Below are positions 42,974 to 60,232 of a DNA stretch of 64,000 nt, piece after piece. The notes beneath the pieces were generated by a model. That model searched no databases. It worked only from the letters and a program-made list of their open reading frames with translations, and was not told the DNA's origin. Each line of letters opens with the position of its first letter. Within the stretch, counting starts at the first letter, position 1. The position numbers were made by a program, and so were the translations under genes. The stretch is from Heyndrickxia ginsengihumi (GTDB lineage: Bacteria > Bacillota > Bacilli > Bacillales > Bacillaceae_C): assembly GCF_011008565.1 (NCBI RefSeq), contig NZ_JAAIWK010000018.1, positions 1 through 64,000 of the forward strand, given 5' to 3'.

Positions 42974-43986
<1,013 letters not shown>

Positions 43987-43999
43987 ATTCGATTCCTCC

Positions 44000-44013
44000 C
44001 GAATGTTTGTTCG
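44000..44013. promoter_or_regulatory. LexA (SOS) box 1
   Basis: CGAATGTTTGTTCG differs at one position from CGAAC-N4-GTTCG. It is just before the yneA start and would cover its promoter or leader. Confidence 0.75.
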
Positions 44014-44038
44014 TTTTTTGTCTAAAGAAATTATAAAA

Positions 44039-44052
44039 CGAACAAATGTTTC
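44039..44052. promoter_or_regulatory. LexA (SOS) box 2
   Basis: CGAACAAATGTTTC matches the consensus except at the last base. Confidence 0.75.
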
Positions 44053-44066
44053 CGTCAAGTGTTTTT

Positions 44067-44080
44067 CGAACTTATGTTTG
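44067..44080. promoter_or_regulatory. LexA (SOS) box 3
   Basis: CGAACTTATGTTTG fits the Bacillus SOS consensus CGAACRNRYGTTYG closely. It should serve lexA autoregulation and yneA. Confidence 0.85.
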
Positions 44081-44193
44081 TTTTATCAAAAATGTTCTGA
44101 TATAATATAAGAAAATTATGGTTAAGAAAATATTGGTATTTTTTATGCTGATGATCTGAATAATAATTAAATCGGAACGTTGAGGTGTTAATA

Positions 44194-44814
44194 ATGAATA
44201 AGCTATCTAAAAGACAACTAGATATATTGAATTTCATAAAAGAAGAAGTTAAAACAAAAGGTTATCCTCCTTCCGTTAGGGAAATAGGGCAAGCTGTTGG
44301 ACTAGCCTCAAGTTCAACGGTTCATGGACATCTCGCGAGACTTGAAAGCAAAGGACTTATTAGAAGAGATCCAACTAAGCCTAGAGCGATTGAAGTTCTT
44401 GATCATGAAGAAACCATTCCTCGTCAAAACGTTATAAATGTTCCGGTTGTTGGTAAAGTTACAGCTGGGATACCAATAACCGCCATTGAAAATATTGAAG
44501 AATATTTTCCGCTACCTGAACATTTAGTTCCGTCAGATGAACAGATTTACATGCTGGAAGTCGTTGGTGAAAGCATGATCGATGCAGGAATTCTAGATGG
44601 AGATTACGTGATTGTTCGCCAGCAGCATACCGCTAATAACGGAGATATTGTTGTCGCTATGACTGAAGATGATGAAGCAACTGTAAAAAGATTTTATAAA
44701 GAAAATGATTACTTTCGTTTACAGCCTGAAAACCCGACGATGGAACCTATTATCCTAAAAAAAGTAACGATATTAGGAAAAGTAATTGCGTTATATCGCC
44801 AAATGGTGCATTAA
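44194..44814 (+). CDS. lexA: SOS repressor LexA
   Basis: Represses DNA-damage genes until RecA triggers its self-cleavage. The 206-residue protein has a winged helix DNA-binding domain ([20 protein letters not shown]). The cleavage site is Ala91-Gly92 and the catalytic dyad Ser127 (GESMID) and Lys165 (ATVKRF). These positions equal those of the B. subtilis protein. The ATG at 44194 follows GAGGTG at about seven bases. It is divergent from yneA, sharing three operator boxes. Confidence 0.97.
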
Positions 44815-45216: not shown

Positions 45217-45843
45217 TTACTTCCTTTTTTGGCGATCTTCAAATATTAAAGCATAGCGAACGAGCTGAACTCTATTACTAATTTGTAATTTATGAAAAAT
45301 ATTTTTCAGATGATTTTTCACAGTGTACTCTGATATCATTAATCTTTCTGCTATTTCTTTATTCGTACTCCCCTCTGCTACCCATTGGATGATTTCTCGC
45401 TCTCTCGTTGTTAATGTTTTAGCTACTAAATAGCGTTGGACATTTTCAAACATTTCCAGCATCTGTTCCCCTACTTTTGCTGAAAAACGCTGTTCCCCAC
45501 ATACCAATTCCTGTAAATATTGTTGCCATAACTGTTTATCTAATATATTTGGTAAATATCCGTCTGCACCGCACCTCATTGCTTCGAGAAGAGAATTTAT
45601 ACTGGCCGATGATACAATGACAAGTTTCGCTAAAGGACATTTCTTTCTTAATTGTTTAATCATCTTTCCACAATCCTCTTGGAAGCCATCGCTAGCAACT
45701 ATTAAATAAATTTGTGGACAATTTCCGTTTAATTCTTCTGTAAGCTGAAAATGTTGATTTTCTTTTAAAAACTGTTCTATGCGTTCTCTTTCCTGGCTAT
45801 GTTTACAAATCAATAAAATATTAATAGCATCCAACCCTTTCAC
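45217..45843 (-). CDS. NarL/LuxR-type regulator with degenerate receiver, in the cyd operon
   Basis: A 208-residue protein built like a NarL-family response regulator. The C-terminal HTH is intact (LTTREREIIQWVAEGSTNKEI..VKNHLKNIFHKL, about 144-187). The N-terminal half has the receiver's size and pattern (CGADGYLPN) but lacks the acidic pair at the start. It has Val at the phospho-acceptor position (about 49) and Asn where the conserved Lys should be. Phosphorylation control is therefore unlikely. The start is a GTG at 45843 or a TTG three codons later. It follows cydD by 27 bases and should be co-transcribed, suggesting feedback control of cyd. Confidence 0.75.
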   Translation of the reverse strand: MKGLDAINILLICKHSQERERIEQFLKENQHFQLTEELNGNCPQIYLIVASDGFQEDCGKMIKQLRKKCPLAKLVIVSSASINSLLEAMRCGADGYLPNILDKQLWQQYLQELVCGEQRFSAKVGEQMLEMFENVQRYLVAKTLTTREREIIQWVAEGSTNKEIAERLMISEYTVKNHLKNIFHKLQISNRVQLVRYALIFEDRQKRK

Positions 45844-45870
45844 CTTCCCTAAAATAGAAACGAGCTACGA

Positions 45871-47631
45871 TTAAACCGTAACTCGGAAAAACGTTTCTTT
45901 TAAGTGCAACGGTGCATCTAATTCATATAACCGACGATAGCGTTCACTATTTTTATATAGCTCCTCATGCGATCCTTGTAATAAAATTTTCCCTTTCTCA
46001 AGAAAAATAACTTCATCCACTTTTTCAATGCCAACTAAATGATGTGTAATCCAAATCAATGTGACATCTTTTAAGCTTTCAAATATTGTCGCTAGTAAAT
46101 CTTTCTCTGTAAGCGGATCTAACCCAACAGTCGGTTCATCTAGGATAACTACTGGAGTTTTTTGTAATAGAATACGCGCTAGCGCAATTCTTTGTCTTTC
46201 ACCACCTGAAAAATTACCGCCTGCTTCTAACATTCTTGTTTGATATCCTTTTGGTAAACTTTGAATATAGTCATGAAGCTTTACTTGTTTTGCAACACGA
46301 ACTATATCTTCATCTGTCGCATTTTCATTCCCTAACCGAATATTGTTAGCAATTGTTGTATCAAATAAATGAGGATTTTGATTCAGTATTGCGATCTGTT
46401 TGGAAATATTGTAGCCAAAGGCTGCAGGCGACAAATCATTAAAGCGAACTATCCCCTGTTGTGGGAGAAGCGAACCATAAAGTAACTGAATAATCGTTGA
46501 TTTTCCTGCACCACTTCTTCCTATTAATGCAACTCTTTTCCCATGTGGGATATGAAGCGATACATTTTCGATTGCCCATTGATCGTTTTCATCATATTTA
46601 AAATAGACATGCTCACATCGTATATCCACAGTAGAAAGTGAGTGGACACCCTCGTTCTGGCTAATTGTTTTAATCATTCCTTTATTCGTAAGTTCAATAT
46701 CCTTTAACCGCTGAAAAGATTTACTATATTGAGTAATCCTTTCAATGGCATCAGAAATAGGTAGCAATGACTCGGCAATCGTAAACATTACGAGAACAAA
46801 TGCTGCAATAAGTGTTGCATTAAAGTGATGATTGATTACCATTTTGTCAGACCAAAGCATGAGTAAAAGCACACTGCCGCCAATAATCAATTGACTAAAA
46901 AAATCCCTCCATCTTCTTCCTGCATGCAATCGCTTTTCAATCTGTTTTAACGATCTTTCTTTTTCCTCATATTTCATTAAAAATGCTTCTTTATTTCCGG
47001 ACATCATCCAATCGCCAACACCTAATACAGCATCTGTTAGTTTTTGGTATAATTCGTGTCTCCCTTTATCTAATGCTTGTTTTTTTCTTTTTGACCATAT
47101 AAAAGACAAAATAGGAATGACAACGATAAGTATTAATAAATATAAAGCCATGAATAATGCAAAAGTAATATCAAAATATCCTAAATAAATGATCCACATT
47201 CCATAAACAAAAAGCGAAATAACACAAGGAAGAATTGTCCGTAAATACAAATCTTGAATATGTTCAATATCATCCGATAAAATGCCTAAAACATCCCCAG
47301 TTTTGTATCGCGAACGAATGAAAAGTGCTGCTGGTTCAAGGGTACGATATAGACGAATTCGCATTTCAGATAAAATCTTTAAAATAATATTATGGCTAGT
47401 AAGTCGTGATGCATATTGGAGCGAAGATCTGAAAATTCCAAATGCCCTTACTGCAACAATTGGGACATATAACATTAAGATATTTGGCGGTCTAAGTGCT
47501 GCTTTTGAAATTAAATAACCCGATGTAAATGTTAAGCCGGCAGCACAACATATTGCCAGCACACTTAAAACGATCGCCAACATAAAACCACGCCGATGTC
47601 TGTTCAAGTATGGAAAAAACCATGTTTTCAC
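45871..47631 (-). CDS. cydD: Cysteine/glutathione-type ABC exporter needed for cytochrome bd, CydD
   Basis: A 586-residue half-transporter: six N-terminal membrane helices (residues about 15-310) and a C-terminal ATPase with GRSGAGKST, FSGGERQRIALARILL and VVILDEP. With CydC it forms a heterodimer that exports a thiol or heme-related compound and is required to assemble cytochrome bd. It overlaps cydC by four bases. CydC/CydD naming is reversed between E. coli and B. subtilis; I name by order. Confidence 0.9.
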   Translation of the reverse strand: MKTWFFPYLNRHRRGFMLAIVLSVLAICCAAGLTFTSGYLISKAALRPPNILMLYVPIVAVRAFGIFRSSLQYASRLTSHNIILKILSEMRIRLYRTLEPAALFIRSRYKTGDVLGILSDDIEHIQDLYLRTILPCVISLFVYGMWIIYLGYFDITFALFMALYLLILIVVIPILSFIWSKRKKQALDKGRHELYQKLTDAVLGVGDWMMSGNKEAFLMKYEEKERSLKQIEKRLHAGRRWRDFFSQLIIGGSVLLLMLWSDKMVINHHFNATLIAAFVLVMFTIAESLLPISDAIERITQYSKSFQRLKDIELTNKGMIKTISQNEGVHSLSTVDIRCEHVYFKYDENDQWAIENVSLHIPHGKRVALIGRSGAGKSTIIQLLYGSLLPQQGIVRFNDLSPAAFGYNISKQIAILNQNPHLFDTTIANNIRLGNENATDEDIVRVAKQVKLHDYIQSLPKGYQTRMLEAGGNFSGGERQRIALARILLQKTPVVILDEPTVGLDPLTEKDLLATIFESLKDVTLIWITHHLVGIEKVDEVIFLEKGKILLQGSHEELYKNSERYRRLYELDAPLHLKETFFRVTV

Positions 47632-49349
47632 TGTAGTCCCTCCAACTGCGTTTTTACAAGCTCATAATATTCACCTTTTTTAGCCAATAGTTCTTCTTGT
47701 GTCCCCATTTCAGCCACTTTTCCTTCTTTTAAAACAATAATTCTGTCCATCTGTTCCATCCAATGTAAACGATGTGTTGCAAATATGACCAATTTTTTTT
47801 GAAAAAGTTTAATCATCGTTTTCTTTAACTCATATTCTGTTTCGACATCTAAATGTGCAGTTGGCTCATCTAACAATAAAATAGGGCGGCCACATAAAAA
47901 CGCTCTAGCCAATGCTACTCTTTGCTCCTGTCCTCCACTCATCGTTCTTCCACCGTTACCTATCATCTCTTCTAGGCCTTTAGGAAAGCTGGCAATAATT
48001 TCGTTAAGACCCGCTGCTTTTATAGCCTCTTTTATTTGCTCATTACTTGCATCAGGATGATAAAAAGCGATATTTTTCTTTATTGTGTCATGAAAAAGAT
48101 ACGGATGCTGTGGTATATATGTTAACTGGTGACGCCAATGATCAAATGCAAGAGATGGTAAAATGTGCCCATTCGTTTGAATCACGCCGTCAGTTGGAGA
48201 TAAAAACCCACTGAGTACGTTAATTAAAGTTGATTTTCCTGCACCGCTAGCACCGACGACACCGATTTTTTCAAACCCTTTGAATTGCAGTTGTACGTTC
48301 TTTAGTGATACATTCCGATCGCTCTCATGCTGTACGTTAATATTTTTTAATGTAAGTGTACTTTTTTCATCCCAGCTTACATGAAATGCATCAATATCTT
48401 TCGAATTTTGTTGGGTTGTTGCAATAGACTGAATATCATGTGCTGCTTCTTTGCCATCCAACGTTGCATGATAATCATTGCCAAACTCTCTTATTGGAAG
48501 AAAGTATTCAGGAGCCAATACTAAAATCGTTAACGCTGGCTGTAATAATATATGGCCATTCACTAACCTAAGGCCAAGTGAGACAGCAACAAACGCAATG
48601 GACAGCATCGTAAAGAAATCTAATGCAAATGATGAAAGGAATGCAACTCGAAGTGTTGCATTCGTCATTTTGCGATATTGATCACTAACTCTGCCAATCG
48701 TATTTGCGTGGGAACGGCTTAATCCTAGATAACGCAGTGTTGTTAATCCGCGTAAAGAATCAACAAAATGGTTTGAAAGTACACGGTATGAATCCCACTG
48801 CATATCCATTTTTTTCTGCGCTGCCAATCCTAGCAAAACCATAAACATAATTAATACAGGCATTGTGACAAATAAAATAATGGCGGAAATACGATCTTGA
48901 AAGCATACATATAGTAGAACAATGATTGGGATTATCCCCATTCCAACGATTTTTGGAATAAATAATTCAAGATATTGCCTCATTTGTGCAGTACCTTCAA
49001 GTGATAATGTAACAAGTTTTCCTGTTCCAATTTTTTGAGTAAAGGTTGGCCCGAGTTCAAAAAGTGTACTAAAAAATTGTTTTCTCAAGTCGGTGCCCGT
49101 TCTATCAGCAAAACGATAAGCAATTTTCTTGATCAACAATGAAAGACAATAACGACCAACTAAAGCACATAAAAATAATAATACCTTTTGAACTAAATTG
49201 GATACTTCCTCTCTAGCAAATAAATGTGAAATAAGATCAGCAAGATACACTGCTTGTAAAATGATGCACATACTTTGAAGTAAGGTAAGGATGCTGACCA
49301 TTGTAATAGTGATCTTGGCCCCTTTGTAAGTTAAAATTTCACGATCCAT
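47628..49349 (-). CDS. cydC: ABC exporter needed for cytochrome bd, CydC
   Basis: The 573-residue partner of the preceding protein, again six helices then an ATPase: Walker A GASGAGKST near residue 375, signature TMSGGQEQRVALARAFL and LLLLDEPTAHLD. It follows cydB by 66 bases. Located in the membrane. Both subunits are full length, so the assembly system is complete. Confidence 0.9.
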   Translation of the reverse strand: MDREILTYKGAKITITMVSILTLLQSMCIILQAVYLADLISHLFAREEVSNLVQKVLLFLCALVGRYCLSLLIKKIAYRFADRTGTDLRKQFFSTLFELGPTFTQKIGTGKLVTLSLEGTAQMRQYLELFIPKIVGMGIIPIIVLLYVCFQDRISAIILFVTMPVLIMFMVLLGLAAQKKMDMQWDSYRVLSNHFVDSLRGLTTLRYLGLSRSHANTIGRVSDQYRKMTNATLRVAFLSSFALDFFTMLSIAFVAVSLGLRLVNGHILLQPALTILVLAPEYFLPIREFGNDYHATLDGKEAAHDIQSIATTQQNSKDIDAFHVSWDEKSTLTLKNINVQHESDRNVSLKNVQLQFKGFEKIGVVGASGAGKSTLINVLSGFLSPTDGVIQTNGHILPSLAFDHWRHQLTYIPQHPYLFHDTIKKNIAFYHPDASNEQIKEAIKAAGLNEIIASFPKGLEEMIGNGGRTMSGGQEQRVALARAFLCGRPILLLDEPTAHLDVETEYELKKTMIKLFQKKLVIFATHRLHWMEQMDRIIVLKEGKVAEMGTQEELLAKKGEYYELVKTQLEGLQ

Positions 49350-49415
49350 ATTCTAACTTGGCGTATACTCGTGACAAGTTGCCATGAGGAGCCAAGTGCT
49401 CACTTCCTTTACAAC

Positions 49416-50429
49416 TTAATATTCTAAATGCTGATCTTTATGAACTCTTTTACGAAATACAATATAGCTCCAGATTGTATATCCTAGAACAAATGGCAAC
49501 AACGTTACGGCCACAATCGACATCACTGTCAATGAATATGATCCAGATGCCGCATTATAAATCGTTAAATCGTACGCCGATTTTATATTACTAATCATGA
49601 CACGCGGAAATAGTCCTACAAACAAAGAAGCAATTGTTAAGGCGATCACTGCTGCATTCATTCCAAAAGCCCAGCCATCTCTTTTTTTAGCTAAGAAGTA
49701 ACCAGAAAGAGCGAGAAAAATAACAACTAAGGCATAGATTGGAACAAGCAAACCGCCGCGTACTGAAAATAAATCGGTTGAAAAATAAGTGGCAATAACA
49801 AAAGCAATTAAAAAGATGGCGAGAATGCCAATGACTTTTTTAGCCATTTGCCGAGCACGTCTTTGTAAATCTCCAACCGTACGTAAACAAATAAATACTA
49901 ATCCATGGAAGAAACATAGTAATGTAATTGCAAGTCCGCCAAGAATCGTGTACATATTTAAATAGCTTGAAAAAGCAGCGTCCATATTCATGTTATGATC
50001 AATTGGTAAACCGTGAACAATTGCTGAGAAAACGACTCCCCATAATAGCGGCACTAGCAGACTTGCTAGAAAAATGAGCCAGTCCCACGTATTTCTCCAG
50101 TTTGAGTTGCCGACTTTTCCTCTAAATTCAAATGCCGTTCCACGCGCAATCAGCAATAATAGCATTAAGACAAGCGGTACATAAAATCCACTGAATAATG
50201 TCGCATACCAGTTTGGAAATGCGGCAAACATTGCACCACCTGCTGTAATCATCCATACTTCATTAGAATCCCAAAAAGGTCCAATTGTGTTAATTAAAAC
50301 CCGTCTCTCAACCTCGTTCTTTGCGAGGAAGCGTGTTGCCATACCAACTCCATAATCGTACCCCTCTAAAAAGAAGAAACCTACGAATAATACTGATATT
50401 AGTAGAAACCATAGCTCATTTAGCGACAA
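49416..50429 (-). CDS. cydB: Cytochrome bd quinol oxidase subunit II
   Basis: The second membrane subunit of the high-affinity terminal oxidase, about 337 residues with eight or nine helices. The N-terminal LLISVLFVGFFFLEGYDYGVGM and NTIGPFWDSNEVW are family signatures. AGGGAGG lies nine bases before a TTG at 50429, which I take as the start. That gives the length of the B. subtilis protein and a 14-base overlap with cydA. An ATG ten codons upstream has no ribosome binding site. Confidence 0.93.
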   Translation of the reverse strand: MSLNELWFLLISVLFVGFFFLEGYDYGVGMATRFLAKNEVERRVLINTIGPFWDSNEVWMITAGGAMFAAFPNWYATLFSGFYVPLVLMLLLLIARGTAFEFRGKVGNSNWRNTWDWLIFLASLLVPLLWGVVFSAIVHGLPIDHNMNMDAAFSSYLNMYTILGGLAITLLCFFHGLVFICLRTVGDLQRRARQMAKKVIGILAIFLIAFVIATYFSTDLFSVRGGLLVPIYALVVIFLALSGYFLAKKRDGWAFGMNAAVIALTIASLFVGLFPRVMISNIKSAYDLTIYNAASGSYSLTVMSIVAVTLLPFVLGYTIWSYIVFRKRVHKDQHLEY

Positions 50430-51822
50430 GGTGATACGCCTCCCTATCAAACGGATCATTCGAAATTACTTTAGGATCTTCCTGTTTCATTGATGGTCCT
50501 TGTTTTATTACACGGACAAAAAGATATACCATTACAACTGCTAAAAGTGTATATGCCCCAAGGAAAGATATGATACTGAAAAGCAATTCTCCCGATGATA
50601 CATTTGGTGATACACTGTCTGCTGTTTTCATTAAGCCAAATACAGTCCATGGTTGACGGCCAATTTCGGTCATAATCCACCCAGTGATGCTTCCAATATA
50701 CGGTAAAGACATTGCTGCTACCATGATTCGTAAAAACCATTTGCTTTCAACTAATTTTTTTCTAAATGCAAGAAATGCCCCAACAATTCCAAGAGCACAA
50801 AGTGCTAGACCGGCCAATGACATAATGCGGAAGCTCCAGAATGTTGTTCTTACTGGTGGAATATAATTTCCTTTACCGTATTTTTGTTCATATTGCTTTT
50901 GTAACGTTTCCATCCCTTTAACTTTACCGTCAAATTTTCCGTAAGATAAATAGCTTAATAAATACGGTATTTTTACTTCTGCTGTATTTTCATGTGTTTT
51001 TGGATTTATCGATGCAAGTACTGTCCATGCTGCTGGATTACCACTATCCTTCCAGAGCCCTTCACTTGCCGCCATTTTCATTGGTTGTGATTGCACTAAA
51101 TGCTTCGCCTGATCATGACCAGCAAATGCTAGCAAAACACCAGATATTAATCCGACTGTTATACCAATATGAAAGGATTTTTTAAAAAACTCAATGTCGC
51201 GTTTCTTTAACAGCATAATTGCACTTATACCTGTAATCAAAAAGGCACCTGTTGCAAAAGACCCAAAAATTGTATGTGGTAATTCAACCCATAGTTGCGG
51301 ATTTTTCACTAATGCAAAGAAATCAGTCATTTCCGCACGGCCATTGCGAACAACGAAGCCAACCGGCTCTTGCATAAATGAATTTGCTGTTAAAATCCAT
51401 ACTGCTGATAAAATCGTCCCTATTGAAACTAACCAAATACTTACTAAATGAATGCGTTTTGAGAGTCGATCCCAGCCAAAGTTCCATATTCCAATAAAAG
51501 TTGATTCCAAGAAAAAGGCAAGCAACGCTTCAATCGCTAGCGGAGCTCCAAATATATCCCCCATAAACCGTGAATAATTTGACCAATTCATTCCAAATTG
51601 GAATTCTTGCAAAATACCTGTTACAACACCAATCGCAAAATTAATCAGAAATAACTTTCCCCAAAACTTTGACATTTTTTTATAAACGTCATCTTTTTTC
51701 ACAACATAGAGCGTTTCCATAATTGCGACGATAAACACAAGACCTATTGATAATGGCACAAATAAAAAATGATAGATCGTCGTCGCAGCATATTGAAATC
51801 TTGCTAAACTTAGCGGATCCAA
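50416..51822 (-). CDS. cydA: Cytochrome bd quinol oxidase subunit I
   Basis: Oxidises menaquinol and reduces oxygen to water at low oxygen, without pumping protons. The 468-residue protein equals B. subtilis CydA in length. It starts MDPLSLARFQYAATTIYHFL with the heme-ligand His at residue 18, and contains GRQPWTVFGLMKTAD. The quinol-binding Q-loop is short, as in Bacillus. The first codon is TTG at good distance from a GGGGG run. It is the first gene of cydABCD plus the regulator. Confidence 0.93.
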   Translation of the reverse strand: MDPLSLARFQYAATTIYHFLFVPLSIGLVFIVAIMETLYVVKKDDVYKKMSKFWGKLFLINFAIGVVTGILQEFQFGMNWSNYSRFMGDIFGAPLAIEALLAFFLESTFIGIWNFGWDRLSKRIHLVSIWLVSIGTILSAVWILTANSFMQEPVGFVVRNGRAEMTDFFALVKNPQLWVELPHTIFGSFATGAFLITGISAIMLLKKRDIEFFKKSFHIGITVGLISGVLLAFAGHDQAKHLVQSQPMKMAASEGLWKDSGNPAAWTVLASINPKTHENTAEVKIPYLLSYLSYGKFDGKVKGMETLQKQYEQKYGKGNYIPPVRTTFWSFRIMSLAGLALCALGIVGAFLAFRKKLVESKWFLRIMVAAMSLPYIGSITGWIMTEIGRQPWTVFGLMKTADSVSPNVSSGELLFSIISFLGAYTLLAVVMVYLFVRVIKQGPSMKQEDPKVISNDPFDREAYHLVAK

Positions 51823-52002
51823 TGTTATCCCCCTTTTCTTTAGCTAGCTAAAAAGTACCAATTTACTTCCAGCTAACTTGTAATTTCAACTTTATTTTAT
51901 TCCTTATGAAACTGCTCCGCATAACTCTATAGAGCTATTATGATGGCTGTTTTGTGTCATAGAAGTGGCAATTTTGTAACAACTGTGACGAACTAAAGAA
52001 AC

Positions 52003-52018
52003 TATGACAAATATCACA
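52003..52018. promoter_or_regulatory. Fnr/CRP- or Rex-like palindrome upstream of cydA
   Basis: On the minus strand TGTGA-TATTTG-TCATA fits TGTGA-N6-TCACA with one mismatch. It is about 180 bases before cydA. Half-sites (TCACA at about 51982-51988, TGTGTCAT near 51955) continue in the same region. B. subtilis cyd is controlled by Rex and oxygen regulators; which protein binds here is open. Confidence 0.45.
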
Positions 52019-52025
52019 GATTTTA

Positions 52026-52060
52026 TATAAAAAAGCCCCAACAGTTATCTGCTGGGACTT
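52026..52060 (-). terminator. Terminator of the siderophore operon
   Basis: On the minus strand AGTCCCAGCAG pairs with CTGTTGGGGCT (two G-U pairs) around a four-base loop, followed by six Ts. It lies just past the sfp stop codon. Confidence 0.85.
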
Positions 52061-52065
52061 TGCAA

Positions 52066-52830
52066 TTACATGTTTAAGGAAGTAAAAGCCTCTTTTAAAA
52101 TGAAAGAACCGTTAAATTGTTTAATGTGAATTGTTTCACCGCCTAAAATAGCAAGGCTGCCGATATACCCTAAACGAGTGTCTAAGTCTACTAACAATGA
52201 GTTCTGAATAAGACTAGGTCTGTTATGAAAAGAAAGCAGCTTTGCAGGATGATTTGGACTAGAAACGCTAATATTTAATGGCGATGTCATTAACCCTTCC
52301 CCAGTTGCCTTAAGAAGGGCTTCCTTCCTTGTCCAATAGGTCAAAAAACCTGATCTTCTTTTTCGTAACGGCAAATGGCTAAGCTGCATCTTTTCTTCTT
52401 CTGTAAGTACACTCTTTTCCAATGTAAGAAAATCGATATTTGAATCAATATATTCAACATCTATTCCAATTTTGTAATTTTTAATAAAAGCTACCACAAT
52501 GACATCTTCTGAATGCGAAACAGAAAATTGAATATTTCCTCTTGTTAATGTTGGCTTGCCATGCAAATGCTTGCAATGCGGGCATATCCGTGCAATAGGT
52601 ACGAACTGAGGAGCAATATTTAATTGTACCGACAAAACAATCCTGCTTATTGTACAACCTAAAATAAAACGGACCCGATCTTGTTCCTTTTTATATGACT
52701 TCGCTCTTATTTGCTCCTCTTCACTCAACAAACGTAGATGCCATGGCTGTATATCATTGATACTACAGTACCACACATGACAATCATTCATTAACAGTGG
52801 AATCGCACGAGGCTCATACAAACTAACCAT
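52066..52830 (-). CDS. sfp: 4'-phosphopantetheinyl transferase, Sfp type
   Basis: Converts the carrier domains of DhbB and DhbF to their active form with the CoA phosphopantetheine arm. The 254-residue protein has the two-domain Sfp fold; metal-binding GIDVEYID (about 123-130), FLTYWTRKEALLKATGEGL with the catalytic Glu and Lys, and HGKP in HLHGKPTLT. It carries an extra CPHC motif (ICPHCKHLHGKP), as in some actinobacterial relatives. It lies 18 bases after mbtH and is the last gene of the operon. B. subtilis keeps sfp at another locus. Confidence 0.9.
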   Translation of the reverse strand: MVSLYEPRAIPLLMNDCHVWYCSINDIQPWHLRLLSEEEQIRAKSYKKEQDRVRFILGCTISRIVLSVQLNIAPQFVPIARICPHCKHLHGKPTLTRGNIQFSVSHSEDVIVVAFIKNYKIGIDVEYIDSNIDFLTLEKSVLTEEEKMQLSHLPLRKRRSGFLTYWTRKEALLKATGEGLMTSPLNISVSSPNHPAKLLSFHNRPSLIQNSLLVDLDTRLGYIGSLAILGGETIHIKQFNGSFILKEAFTSLNM

Positions 52831-52848
52831 TTTTATTCTCCCATCATG

Positions 52849-53052
52849 CTAATTGTTAAGTTTGAGACTATTTGGCCTCATATCCGTCCAATTTTTATTG
52901 ATGTAATTTACACAATCATCTTTACTATGTTCAGATAACACCATTTTCCAACCTAGTGGAATATCAAAACTTGCGGGCCATAGTGAATATTGCCCTTCTT
53001 CATTTAATAAAACAATAAACCTGCCTTCTTTTAGCTCAAATGGATTTTGCAT
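52849..53052 (-). CDS. mbtH: MbtH-like protein
   Basis: A 67-residue chaperone that binds and activates NRPS adenylation domains, here presumably those of DhbF. The signature is visible: NEEGQYSLWP, then PLGWKMV, then INKNWTDMRPNSL. It follows dhbF by 19 bases. Confidence 0.95.
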   Translation of the reverse strand: MQNPFELKEGRFIVLLNEEGQYSLWPASFDIPLGWKMVLSEHSKDDCVNYINKNWTDMRPNSLKLNN

Positions 53053-53071
53053 TGCAAATCTCTCCCAGCAT

Positions 53072-56000
53072 TTAAAGTATCATTTGATTTTTTTCTTTCA
53101 TTAATCGCATTAAAATTTGACCTATTTCAAAAAGCGGACCTGGTTGACAAAGATCTTTATGTCTACAATGAATGTCATACTGAAAAATATTTCCTGAAAC
53201 AAAAGGCCGCCATTCATCTGGACTTATTGGATCAAACCATTCAGGTATTACTGTCGACCTAAAGAAGAGAATATCTCCTTCAAATTGTTTTGGTTTATAT
53301 TCACTTAAAATACGAACAGAATTTTTATACGTCTCTTTTAAGTTAATAATCGTCTCTTCATCTAAACTAGCTAATGCACTTCCATGACGGAGAAGAATTT
53401 CAATAGTGTTACTTTGTGTTAAATTTTTTTCACATATATCCTCTGGTTCAAATCCTCCTAAAGCTAAAAGTGCGATGAGCACTTCTTCTTCTTTCGGTAC
53501 TTGAGCAATAGGAAGAAATTGACTTGGATATGAGTCTAGCATTACTACGAGTGAAACTTCATCTCCCTGTTTTTGTAGCTCTGTCGCCATGGCATGGACA
53601 ACATTCCCCCCAAGTGACCATCCTAATAAATGATACGGTCCTTTTGGTTGAACAGATTTTATTTGGCAAATATATTCGAGCGCCATTTCATCCAATGTTT
53701 TCGGTAATGGCTCATTCCTTTCAATCCCTCTCGCTTGCAATCCATAAATTGGAAAATCCTTTTCTAATGACGTCATCAAACCGGCATAGCACCAACTAAG
53801 TCCGCCTGCAGGATGTACGCAAAACAGCGGCAAGTTGTTTCCAGACGTTCTAAGCGGCAATAACATTGCTAATGAATTTTGACTGCTTCCTACCTCAAGT
53901 TTTTCTACAAGACTTGCAATCGTAGGAGCTTCGAAAAGATCTCCAATACTTAATTCCGTTCCAAATACATCACGAATTCGGCTCATTAATTGAACAGCCA
54001 ACAGGGAATGACCGCCTAGCTCAAAAAAGCTTTCGCTAACACTGACTTTGTTCAACTGCAAAATTTCTTTAAATAAGTTACACATAATCTCTTCTTGAGG
54101 AGTACGCGGGCCTCTGTCTAATCGTTCCATTTCTATTTCAGGAGCAGGCAATGCTTTACGATCTAGCTTTCCATTCGGTGTCAACGGTAAACTTTCTATG
54201 GACATAAAAAATGATGGTACCATATAACCAGGGAGAACATTTGCTACATAGTTTCGTAAATGCTCTGTCGTTCCTTTCATACCTTTTTTATAAACTATAT
54301 ATGCTACAAGGCATTTATTATTTGGATAATCTTCACGAACGACGACCCCTACTTGCTCTATAGCGGGATGTTTAGCAAGAACCGCCTCGATCTCACCTAT
54401 TTCGATACGAAAACCTCTTATTTTTACTTGCTGATCTGCCCGTCCTACATATTCTAACAGTCCATTGGCATGCCACTTAGCCAGATCTCCTGTTCGATAC
54501 ATTCTAGACCCTGGCTGGCCATACGGATTGGCTATAAATCTTTCTGAAGTTAAATCAGGTCGTCCCAAATACCCGCGTGCCAGTCCTGGACCTGAAACAT
54601 ACAATTCTCCTACAACTCCCGGCGGTACTATTTGTAGCTCTGAATCCAGCAAATAAACATCTAAGTCAGAAAGACTGCAACCTATTAAACTGTTACGGCT
54701 TTCAGCAACCATTTTTTCATTTAGCTCTATATACGTAACATGAACTGTTGTTTCCGTAATGCCGTACATATTAACTAATTTTGGCTGCATGTCGTCATGG
54801 CGCCTGTACCATTCTTCCAATCTACTAAGTTCCAATGCTTCGCCACCAAATATGATATACCGTAGTGAGAGTCTGTTCGAAACTTCCGAATCCTCTTTAT
54901 CTGCCTGCATAAGTTGATAAAATGCTGATGGGGTCTGATTTAAGACTGTTACATGTTCATCAGCTAGTAATGCTAAAAATTGTTTTGGTGAACGACTAAC
55001 ATTATGTGAAACAATGACGAGACTACCTCCATGCAATAACGGTCCCCATATTTCCCATACAGAAAAATCAAATGCATATGAGTGGAATAAAGTCCAAATA
55101 TCATCAGCGCCAAAATGGAATAAGTGATCAGTTGATTTAAAAAGTCGGACAACATTATGATGCGGAACAACTACTCCTTTCGGCTTCCCTGTCGAACCTG
55201 ATGTGTATATAATATAGGCAGAATGGGATGGTAATAATGGTTCTGGTCGCTCACTATTGATTGGACTTGTTTCAAGCAACAGATTGATATCCTCGCGTGC
55301 TTCCAGCTCATCAACCGTGAAATGTTTTATATTCCCAATGGTCTTTATTGTTGAAGCAATATGTTTTGTTGTAAGTATACATATCGGCTGAGCATCTTCC
55401 ACCATAAATGCAAGCCTGTCTTCTGGATAATTTGGATCCAATGATAAATACGTTCCTCCTGCTTTAAGAACTGCTAACATTCCAACCACTAGCTCAATAG
55501 ATCTTGAAAAAGCTAACGCTACTACTTTTTCAGGTCCAACTCCCATAGCGATTAACAGTTTTGCAAGCTTATTTGCTTTTTCATTTAATGCACGATAACT
55601 TAGTCTTTCATTTTCAAAAATTAATGCCGTTGCATTCGGTCTCTTTTCGGCTTGCTCTTCGAATAATGCAGGTATCGTTTTCTCCGAAACTTTCGAAACA
55701 TGTTTGTTATGTTCTGGTGTGAAAAGCATTTTTCGTTCTTCTGGCAATATAATACTTAATTTATCAATTGGCACATCTGGTTTGCTCACTATTTCTTTCA
55801 ATAACTGTAAAAAACGTTCAGCCATTTTTTCAATAGTAGTTCTTCTAAATAAATCACTACTATATTCAATGAATCCATGTATACCATTAGGAGAACCGTC
55901 AGTTTTACGCCCTTCTTGCAATTCAAATGTAAGATCAAATTTCGCAGAACCTACGTGATAAAGTTCTAGTTTCGTTTCAACATCCTCTAATTCCAATCTT

Positions 56001-59000
56001 GGATCTGGAATATTTTGAAAAGCAAACATCACTTGAAATAACGGATTTTTAGACCGATACCTAGTTGGATTTAATTGTTCTACTAAAAGTTCAAATGGTA
56101 CATCTTGATGTTCAAAAGCAGATAAATCCGCATATTTTACCCGAGACAATAGTTCACTAAAACTAGGATTTCCAGCAGTATCGGTTCTAAGGACTAACGT
56201 ATTGACAAATAATCCAATGACATTTTCCAATGAATCGTGATTTCTTCCAGCAATTGGACTGCCGATTGGTATATCATTTCCTGCCCCTAATTTCGTTAAC
56301 AGTGCAGCAATTGCTGCTTGAAGTACCATGAATAAGCTAACGTTCCGCTTATGGGCAAGATCTAAAAGCTTTTGATGAAGGATGGAGTCAATGGTAAGAT
56401 CAACGATTCCACCTTCAAAACTAGATTGCATCGGACGCGGAAAATCTGTCGGTAACTCTATTTGATCGGGTAACCCATTAAGTGCATCTTTCCAGTAAGC
56501 AAGCTGCTGTGACACCTGCTTAGCCCCTTTCCTTTCATTTAGCCATTGTTGCTGGCAAATAGTATAGTCAGCATATTGGATTGGCAGCGGAGATAAAGCA
56601 TTACTGCTTTTATGACAATGGTCATGATATGCTTTAGCTAAATCACGAGTTAACGGTGTCAAAGACCAGCCATCAGCAGCAATATGATGTATAAGCAGTA
56701 ATAGTACATATTGATTGTGATTGATTTCAAATATGTTTACCCGAAAAGCAGGTTCCGTTGTTAAATCAAAACAGTAATGAATTGCCTTGTTTATTTCTGT
56801 TAAAAATTGTTTTTCATTTGTTTTAATAACCTCAAGCTTCATTTTAAAATCGTGTGGCTCAAGTATACATTGGTATGACATTCCAGTCTCATCGGACGGA
56901 AACATTGTCCGTAATGATTCATGCCGAGTAATGACATCAATTAATGCCTGTTGTAACGCTTGAATATTCAAATCTCCTTTCAACTTTATGACAACAGGAA
57001 TATTGTATGCGTCTTTTCTCCCCTCTAAATGTTGCAAAAACCATAAACGGCGTTGTCCAAATGAAAGGGGAATCTGACTAGGCCGTGGTTGTTTTTCTAT
57101 AATTGGTTTGTTTAATTGATTGTCTTCTAATTGAGCAACTAACTGTGCAACAGTTGGATATTCAAATAATTTGGCAATGGTCATATTTTTCCCTAGTACT
57201 TCACGGATTAAATTGATGAGCTGAACAGCAAGTATTGAATGCCCGCCCATTTCAAAGAAATTATCATCGATTCCAATCTCAGGGATTTGCAAAGTTTCTG
57301 AAAACAATTTACATAGCATCTCTTCCTGAGGAGTTCTAGGTTTCCTCGTTTCCACCTTCATCGTAAATTCAGGCTTTGGCAATGCATTTCGATCTAATTT
57401 ACCATTTGGCGTTAATGGCATTTCTTTTATTACGATAAATATTGATGGAATCATGTAACTCGGTAAATAATTACTTATATAACTACGGATTTCCATTTCA
57501 TTAAAAACTGTGTGTTGCCCTTGCACAATATAGGCAACTAACCTCTGACTGCCAGCATGATCTGTACCTATTTGCACTACAGCCTTTTCAACAGAGTTGT
57601 GTTTCATTAATATTTCTTCTATCTCACTTGTCTCAATCCGAAATCCGCGCAATTTAATTTGATAATCTACACGGCCAATATAATCAAGGGTTCCGTTTTC
57701 ATTCCAACGCACAAGATCTCCTGTTCGATACATTCGACTGCCTGGCGCTCCATAAGGGTTCGCAATAAAACGCTCAGCAGTTAATGCTGGCCGGTTGTTA
57801 TAACCTCGTGCAAGTCCCCTTCCTGATATGTAGAGCTCTCCAATAGCCCCCGCTGGAACAGGCTGTAAACATGAATCTAATACATAAACTTCCGTATTCC
57901 ATATCGGTTGTCCAATCGAAGGCGTCTGTTTTTGTTCATCGTTTACATTAGATAGCATCGACCATATCGTTGTTTCTGTAGGGCCATATAAATTAGTCGT
58001 CTTGCAATTTAAGTTTTTTAACGTTGAAGCAAGTTGCCCCGGTAAGGCTTCGCCTCCAACGAGTACTTTCATTCCTCTTACACTATGAGGCTGATTCGCG
58101 GCTAACATTTGCCATAGGGTAGGAGTCGCTTGCATCATTGTCACGTTGTGTTCTTTTATTAGATTGGCTATCGCTGCTGGATCTTTATTGACATCTTTTT
58201 CAGCAATAACGATCCTCGCCCCACAAATGAGCGGTAGAAAAAGTTCCAAAGCAGAAATATCAAACGAAACGGTAGTAACTGCTAACATACGATCATTCGC
58301 CGTTATGGGCATTTTATTTCGCATTGAAAACAATACATTATTTAAACTATCTAATGTCACGACTACACCCTTCGGTTCTCCTGTTGATCCTGATGTGTAT
58401 ATAATATAGGCTGGATGCATGCAAGAAACATGTTTATGAAGATTGAAAGAAGATGCATTCAATAATAGATTCTTTGTCCTCGGATCATCGATGACAATTA
58501 CATGATTAGTGAACTGCTGAATAAAGCGAGCTCTTTGGGCCTCTATATTTGTAAGTATACAAATCGGTTTTGTATTTTTTAGCATATGTGCCACTCGTTC
58601 GTCAGGATATTCTGGATCTATCGGTAAATATGCCGCTCCGGTCTTTAGCACTGCTAACAGACAAACTAGCATATCAATTGAACGGTTAAGTGTAATGGCA
58701 ACGTAATCTTCTGCTTTTACTCCTTGTGCTAACAAATAATGCGCCAAGCGATTAGCACACTGATTTAATTCATGATAGTTTAACTGTTCATCACCACATA
58801 TAACGGCTTTAGCATTTGGTGTTTCTAAAACTTGTTTCTCAAAGACATGTAAAAATCCATCATGTGGCAATGCTTGAACTGTTTGATTTCGTTCCTCCAA
58901 TAATTGCTGGTATTCATCAGCAAGTAATATATGAATGCTACCTAAACGCTGCTCTTTTTGATGGGACACTACTTTTTTAAGTAAATGGATAAATCGCTGC

Positions 59001-60232
59001 TGGTGTGATTTCAGTTCATCAATCGAATAAAGAGACGGATTTGCATCAAAATCCATTCTAAATCCGATCCCCTCTATATCATGCAAATTAATAGTAAAAT
59101 CATCGACAGGGCCATTTCCTAAATTATATGTAACCCCTCTAGCAGAACCAAAACGAAGATCATTATTAAATGGCATAATATTGATGATCGGCCCAAATAA
59201 TCTTTTATGTTCTCCTAATAATTTAAGATCACGGCGCAGCACCTCATGTCGATAACGATGATGTGCCATGCTTTCTTTTATTACTTCCCTTACATGTTCA
59301 AATAATTGTGATAGTTGCATATCCGCTTGTAATGTTAAACGAAGCGGGATCATATTCATCATCATTGCTGGAATATTCATTACATCTATACTTGGGCGAT
59401 TCAGCACAGGATATCCTAATATAATATCGTTTGTACCAGTCAGTCGATGAATATAGAGGGCAACAGTCGCAACCATTAGTTCGTACCAATTTGTATGAAG
59501 ATCATGGGCGCTTTTTTTCAGTTGTGTAGTGCTCGCAAGTGACCATTGTATCGAATTTCTTAGAAACGAATGTTGAGCATTTGCAATATGATCTTTCATG
59601 CCAACGACAGTTGGACCGTCTTTAAATTTCTCCCTCCAATATTGTTGATCAACACGATACTGTTCAGATTCTTTGTATTTCCTATCTAATTCAAGTACTT
59701 TACTAATAGGATCAAATGGTTTTCCCCCATATGGCTGCCCATTTATGATATCTGAATAAGCATTGGCGACTCTTTGAATGATAAGCTTTGCGCCAAAGCC
59801 ATCAATTGCGATATGATGTATGCGTTGATACCAAATATAGTGATTAGAAGACAGCTTAAGTAGTGCTTCCGTGAATATGGAATCTCTTTCCAAATTAACA
59901 GGATGTGAAAACTCTTCTTTCATCCACCTTATCGCTTGTTCACGAGGATCTTGTTCTGTGCTTACATCAATATAATGAAATGGCATCTCCTTAAATGGTA
60001 CAACTATTTGATATGGCCCTTTTTCATCTTCACCGAATCTAGTAAATAATGATTCTGTTTCAAATATGACTTTTTCTAACGCATGTTCAAATGTGTCAGG
60101 ATTGATATCACCAAAAATCTCGATATATTCTGCTGTATTATAAATAGGACTACTAGGATCAAGCTGTTGAGCAAACCAAATACTAGATTGTGCCTCAGTA
60201 AGAGGCAATCTAGTATTTTTCCGATCTATCAT
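53072..60232 (-). CDS. dhbF: Bacillibactin synthetase DhbF (NRPS)
   Basis: A 2386-residue two-module synthetase. Order: condensation 1 (HHIAIDGFG at 139-147), adenylation 1 ([11 protein letters not shown] about 611), carrier 1 (Ser in GGHS about 998), condensation 2 (HHIAADGWS), adenylation 2 ([11 protein letters not shown] about 1678), carrier 2 (about 2076), and thioesterase (GWSLGG about 2204). The specificity residues of adenylation 1 read DILQ-GLIWK, the glycine code; those of adenylation 2 read DFWNIGMVHK, the threonine code. It should join DHB-Gly-Thr three times and cyclise the trimer. All catalytic motifs are intact. GGAGTG lies before the ATG. Confidence 0.95.

Follow-up and report, generated by a model that had tools for sequence, protein, structure and literature searches.

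A pseudo-receiver NarL-type regulator gene behind cydABDC in Heyndrickxia ginsengihumi, with a candidate operator in the cydA leader

Rex and ResD are published regulators of the Bacillus cyd operon, and VpsT and CsgD are pseudo-receiver regulators. Atypical response regulators are defined by homology to the receiver domain with one or more active-site residues gone, and the switching of pseudo-receiver regulators is an open question (PMC12632262). One atypical regulator, CemR, governs energy metabolism (PMC11334517). In Escherichia coli NarL, the isolated output domain is a constitutive repressor of frdA that needs no phosphorylation and acts from a 7-2-7 site at -4/+6 relative to the transcription start, and an engineered high-affinity 7-2-7 site has the sequence TACCCCTAAAGGGGTA (PMC4549865).

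Here we describe REG, a NarL/LuxR-type regulator whose gene stands last in a cytochrome bd operon of Heyndrickxia ginsengihumi. The gene lies on a stretch of 64,000 nucleotides (contig NZ_JAAIWK010000018.1, positions 1 to 64,000), hereafter the window. Genome comparison makes it fairly likely that REG is a dedicated, phosphorylation-independent regulator of cydABDC that arose from a response regulator and binds a palindrome in front of cydA, most simply as a repressor. An earlier note on this DNA knew of no described cyd regulator of this type, and no paper on a pseudo-receiver cyd regulator resembling REG was found among open-licence full texts.

The operon and the regulator at its end

The operon runs in the order cydA-cydB-cydD-cydC-REG on the minus strand. 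cydA (50416..51822) matches the cytochrome bd subunit I models NF011677/NF011609 with scores below their curated cut-offs and aligns with cydA of all compared operons. It is followed by cydB (49416..50459; TIGR00203, 379.1 bits), cydD (47628..49349; TIGR02857, 565.4 bits) and cydC (45871..47631; TIGR02868, 543.6 bits). The cydA and cydB frames overlap by 44 nt (50416-50459), an overlap also kept in the operons of Terrilactibacillus and of the Sporolactobacillus-like group g21. REG (45217..45843, minus strand) encodes 208 amino acids from a GTG start, 27 bp past the stop of cydC. The earlier note gave the same spacing and placed the gene behind cydD, which in fact lies one gene earlier.

A hairpin with an 11 bp stem and a T-rich tail, terminator- or attenuator-like, sits at the end of cydC (45861..45885, minus strand); 3 of 200 shuffled sequences fold equally well. 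The corresponding hairpin is stronger in T. laevilacticus, and none was seen in T. tamarindi. In the window this element may lower REG expression relative to cyd, and in both species that have it, it could tune the dose of REG. Its position between cydC and REG in these two carriers weighs against REG as a dedicated regulator of the operon. No Rfam family was found near the operon. The operon sits next to a segment (42974-44814) in which lexA diverges from genes for a LysM protein and a resolvase-like protein, followed by tkt; we take this to be the lexA-yneA-yneB-tkt arrangement usual in Bacillus. The strand that carries cydA also holds, further upstream, a phosphopantetheinyl-transferase-like gene and a large NRPS gene with two modules (DhbF-like, of siderophore type; 52066-60232), separated from cydA by a terminator-like hairpin (52032-52061).

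The output half of REG is intact, as the earlier note had read it, with a GerE domain at residues 143-198 (PF00196, 6.8e-23) that supplies the C-terminal helix-turn-helix of the NarL/FixJ type. No receiver family in Pfam matches REG, and NarL and VraR align with residues 58-199. Aligned with a canonical paralog of the same genome, the pseudo-receiver (residues 1-125) has C,K in place of the D,D acidic pair, V at the phospho-Asp position, S at the Thr position and P for the conserved Lys of GYLLK; about 13 residues around beta2-alpha2 are missing. The loss of the acidic pair, the phospho-acceptor and the Lys, asserted earlier from the letters, is thus borne out. In Terrilactibacillus, the homologs carry G,N at the acidic pair and Glu at the phospho-Asp position and retain Thr and Lys. 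Neither set of residues is that of a canonical response regulator, and receiver homology minus at least one active-site residue is what marks a pseudo-receiver or atypical response regulator. Judged from these alignments, REG is a DNA-binding regulator whose phosphorylation switch is gone.

Structure prediction for the Terrilactibacillus homolog (pLDDT 75) gives a receiver-like N-terminal fold, as expected of the NarL/FixJ type, and VraR, NarL and LiaR match the model at full length (E ~1e-11). For the window protein (pLDDT 66) the output domain alone is reliable and the receiver part is poor; this model is too weak for its receiver structure to be interpreted.

As the earlier note observed, no kinase lies near REG in the window. 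All five HisKA_3 kinases of the genome adjoin five other NarL-type regulators, so that REG, unlike a canonical two-component regulator, has neither an adjacent kinase nor an unpaired one of the HisKA_3 type.

Distribution, selection and ancestry

A genome scan with the REG protein found cydABDC followed by a REG homolog (40-42% identity), likewise receiver-dead and without a kinase, in both T. laevilacticus and T. tamarindi. A profile built from these three proteins was applied to 399 genomes from the order and 400 from the class. The carriers score 430, 428 and 340 bits, and everything else listed scores at most about 204 bits. In about 80 next-best relatives examined, the active site reads D,D,D,T,K throughout, apart from Ser at the Thr position in two and Glu at the first D in one, and a kinase gene adjoins nearly every one of them. 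A fourth genome, G783 (family f15), carries cydABDC followed by a gene resembling REG, again without a kinase, whose product has V and P at the phospho-Asp and Lys positions, like the window. This genome is of low quality (75% complete, 10% contamination), with frame breaks in all cyd genes. The many small frame shifts on its contig (L156, G783:C1) are consistent with uncorrected long reads, and we read the breaks as assembly noise, not biology. By these residues, receiver loss is further advanced in the window and G783 than in Terrilactibacillus. Among the plasmid matches listed, REG-like proteins are only distant (identity at most 38.5%, several annotated as response regulators), and REG-like copies on plasmids were rejected.

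Linkage of REG to cyd, which the earlier note proposed as a check, therefore recurs in both Terrilactibacillus species and in G783. It is narrow: the arrangement is confined to four genomes, two of them sister species, and most cyd operons lack REG, including at least 13 of the same genus, family and order. In g21 a CBS-domain gene directly follows cydC, whereas in Terrilactibacillus and G783 it follows REG, which indicates that the locus is the same and that REG was gained or lost there.

The operon itself appears foreign to its genus. Four congeners carry a different cydABDC, 46-65% identical, and the window operon (45871-51822) is xenologous to theirs. In a concatenated CydABDC tree it groups with Terrilactibacillus and g21 (Sporolactobacillus-type, f15) with 100% support, apart from the four congeners, and this grouping rules out that the operon was passed down vertically in the genus. 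Its position outside the congeners suggests that operon and regulator were acquired together by horizontal transfer.

Between the two Terrilactibacillus species, REG has a dN/dS of 0.08-0.11, and the cyd genes have 0.04-0.10. In this genus, purifying selection acts on the receiver half (dN/dS ~0.09, 0.08-0.09), and the output half has a dN of 0, with zero amino-acid changes. The same place in other genera and this selection together mark the open reading frame as more than a chance one. Across genera (window against Terrilactibacillus), identity is 70% in the output domain and 26-28% in the receiver half.

These data bear on whether REG is merely a decaying response regulator without function. 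Progressive loss of receiver residues, the deletion in the window protein and the Sporolactobacillus-like cyd operons that lost REG or never had it would all suit decay. However, a dN/dS of 0.08-0.1 equal to that of the cyd genes, an output domain unchanged between two species, linkage kept across genera and the co-occurrence of the gene with the site described below make this very improbable.

In Terrilactibacillus, purifying selection also shows that the receiver half has some role, which could be to sense a ligand, a protein partner or heme/redox state and so switch cydA in either direction; VpsT, a NarL-type relative in the PDB, binds c-di-GMP. Against this, the receiver halves are divergent across genera and show no obvious conserved pocket, a dimerisation role explains the selection equally well, and the cysteines are not conserved: the window protein has six and both Terrilactibacillus homologs have none. 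Sensing by the pseudo-receiver is accordingly an explanation we regard as doubtful, and redox sensing through conserved cysteines (a PedR-like idea) is ruled out. The earlier proposal of a phosphorylation-independent cyd regulator responding to a small molecule or redox state thus keeps its first part, through the linkage, the dead receiver and the candidate site, and loses the cysteine-based version of its second.

A candidate operator in the cydA leader

The region upstream of cydA that had been suggested as the REG target (51840-52060) contains a candidate NarL-type operator. This 7-2-7 inverted repeat, TAGCTCT-AT-AGAGTTA (TAGCTCTATAGAGTTA), lies at 51922..51937 on the minus strand, 115 nt ahead of the start codon of cydA. 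A -10-like hexamer, CATAAT (51937..51942, minus strand), overlaps its edge; the hexamer was read from leader comparison and marks a putative promoter. A hexamer of this kind (CATAAT, GATAAT or TATAAC) abuts the palindrome in all four carrier leaders. The palindrome reads TAGCTCT-TA-AGAGGTA in T. laevilacticus and TAGCTCT-AA-AGAGGTA (TAGCTCTAAAGAGGTA) in T. tamarindi; the latter matches the engineered NarL site at 13 of 16 bases. In G783 the aligned position is degenerate (CAGCCCT-AT-TGAGGTA, CAGCCCTATTGAGGTA), with 3 mismatches.

The carrier genomes G000, G255 and G277 each contain the strict pattern TANCTCTNNAGAGNTA a single time, in the cydA leader, and three REG-less genomes lack it; the pattern was built from the sites it then finds, and the informative part is its uniqueness, not its presence. 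No palindrome with fewer than 3 mismatches occurs in the REG-less cyd leaders scanned. Conservation of the leader segment between the window and Terrilactibacillus exceeds 60 of 60 shuffles, and REG-less leaders stay at background. The leaders of the window and Terrilactibacillus are conserved upstream of the palindrome and not downstream of it. Genome-wide, one-mismatch sites are no commoner than in a reversed control, which makes the counts uninterpretable as evidence of a wider REG regulon; other targets are neither excluded nor claimed.

The palindrome might instead be the site of another regulator or an RNA element, with REG acting elsewhere. It lies near the presumed transcript start, where it could fold a small hairpin, and Rex is present in all these genomes. 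Yet a Rex site in the window cydA leader was sought and rejected, with none within 3 mismatches, no Rfam family matches, the presence of the site tracks that of REG, and its core is that of a related response regulator's own promoter site. Another owner for the palindrome is therefore improbable.

That related regulator belongs to a sister family of canonical, HisKA_3-paired systems in Bacilli, with one locus in the window genome (G000:C28, L031 9868-11345) and about 55 further loci. A CTCT-N2-AGAG core with at most one mismatch lies upstream of the sister kinase at 11 of 56 loci, against 0.4 expected from shuffles; these 11 loci are mutually related and not eleven independent events. The core is 70-95 nt (about 80) from the kinase start; two examples are TCACTCTTAAGAGTGA and, from the window genome, TACCCCTAAAGAGTGA. 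The latter is a 7-2-7 palindrome between the divergent kinase and YcnI-like genes (L031 11413-11428), through which the sister regulator probably controls its own expression. As the core is common to the sister promoters and the cydA leader site, the simplest reading is that REG retained the DNA code of its two-component ancestor. In the window genome the neighbours of the sister system include CsoR, YcnI-like, YdhK-like and DUF2231-like genes, which hint at a function connected with copper. A general copper link for the family is kept as a lead only, YcnI or YtkA being seen in few flanks in other genomes.

REG would thus descend from a NarL-type response regulator of the canonical kind, and the sister family has kept its HisKA_3 kinases. 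The receiver of REG, stripped of phosphotransfer residues, may now be a structural or dimerisation domain, and the output domain would keep its specificity for the CTCT-N2-AGAG core. From these comparisons we infer binding and dimerisation, the sign of regulation and the signal. A REG dimer would occupy the one 7-2-7 palindrome, next to the -10-like hexamer of the cydA promoter; should this hexamer be the real -10, the palindrome would cover the transcription start. Repression there would provide negative feedback or a set-point for cyd expression, with REG activity set mainly by the amount of REG, by read-through past the hairpin behind cydC and by how far RNA polymerase or other regulators of cyd compete with it. 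By analogy, repression of frdA by the NarL output domain is a direct precedent for receiver-independent repression.

Activation of cydA by REG is also conceivable, the -35 being poor. In that case a weaker promoter downstream would have the palindrome at about -45, and Glu or Val at the phospho site would lock the active form. An activator-dependent promoter would suit the lack of a good -35 at 17 nt from the -10-like hexamer, and the Glu of Terrilactibacillus, with Thr and Lys kept, is a possible phosphomimetic (PMC12632262). In Corynebacterium glutamicum, HrrA binds upstream of cydABDC and activates cydAB (PMC7337898). However, the conservation between the window and Terrilactibacillus lies upstream of the palindrome and not downstream of it, and the window protein has Val, not Glu, at the phospho site, and we consider activation unlikely. 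REG probably controls the promoter of its own operon through a palindrome found once in the genome, and a role as repressor or feedback element is likelier than one as activator.

Comparison with known systems

REG might be the first pseudo-receiver regulator fixed in a cytochrome bd operon, having shed its kinase, kept its DNA code, settled into feedback with one operator and one target, and moved horizontally with the oxidase; we advance this only tentatively. With it, the regulation of an oxygen-scavenging oxidase in Bacilli gains a candidate for local control. The ancestor type (kinase, receiver and site) and a kinase-free descendant are both available, each with predicted operators. Should the sister system of this genome prove to be linked to copper, a copper-related signalling lineage would be tied to a copper-free oxidase.

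The sister family, the nearest canonical relative of REG, shares with it the CTCT-N2-AGAG core, found in its own promoter, and differs in its intact receiver, adjacent kinase and lack of cyd linkage. NarL of E. coli agrees with REG in fold family, in linker and in its GerE output domain, and the candidate REG site is likewise 7-2-7; however, NarL is phosphorylated by NarX/NarQ and acts globally, whereas REG lacks phospho residues and kinase and seems local to one operon. Like REG, pseudo-receiver regulators such as ChxR, HP1043 and CemR combine a receiver-like domain with incomplete phosphotransfer residues and an intact DNA-binding domain, and are usually orphans (PMC12632262). VpsT and CsgD belong to the same group. 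None of these is known to be fixed in a cyd operon, and CemR is global, whereas REG is of NarL type and encoded inside the operon. HrrA of the HrrSA system resembles REG as a response regulator that acts upstream of cydABDC, but it has a canonical partner in HrrS, responds to heme, is global and is encoded outside the cyd operon (PMC7337898). Of the published cyd regulators of Bacillus, Rex has an unrelated fold and no consensus site in the window leader, and ResD is of OmpR type, whereas REG is a NarL-type protein.
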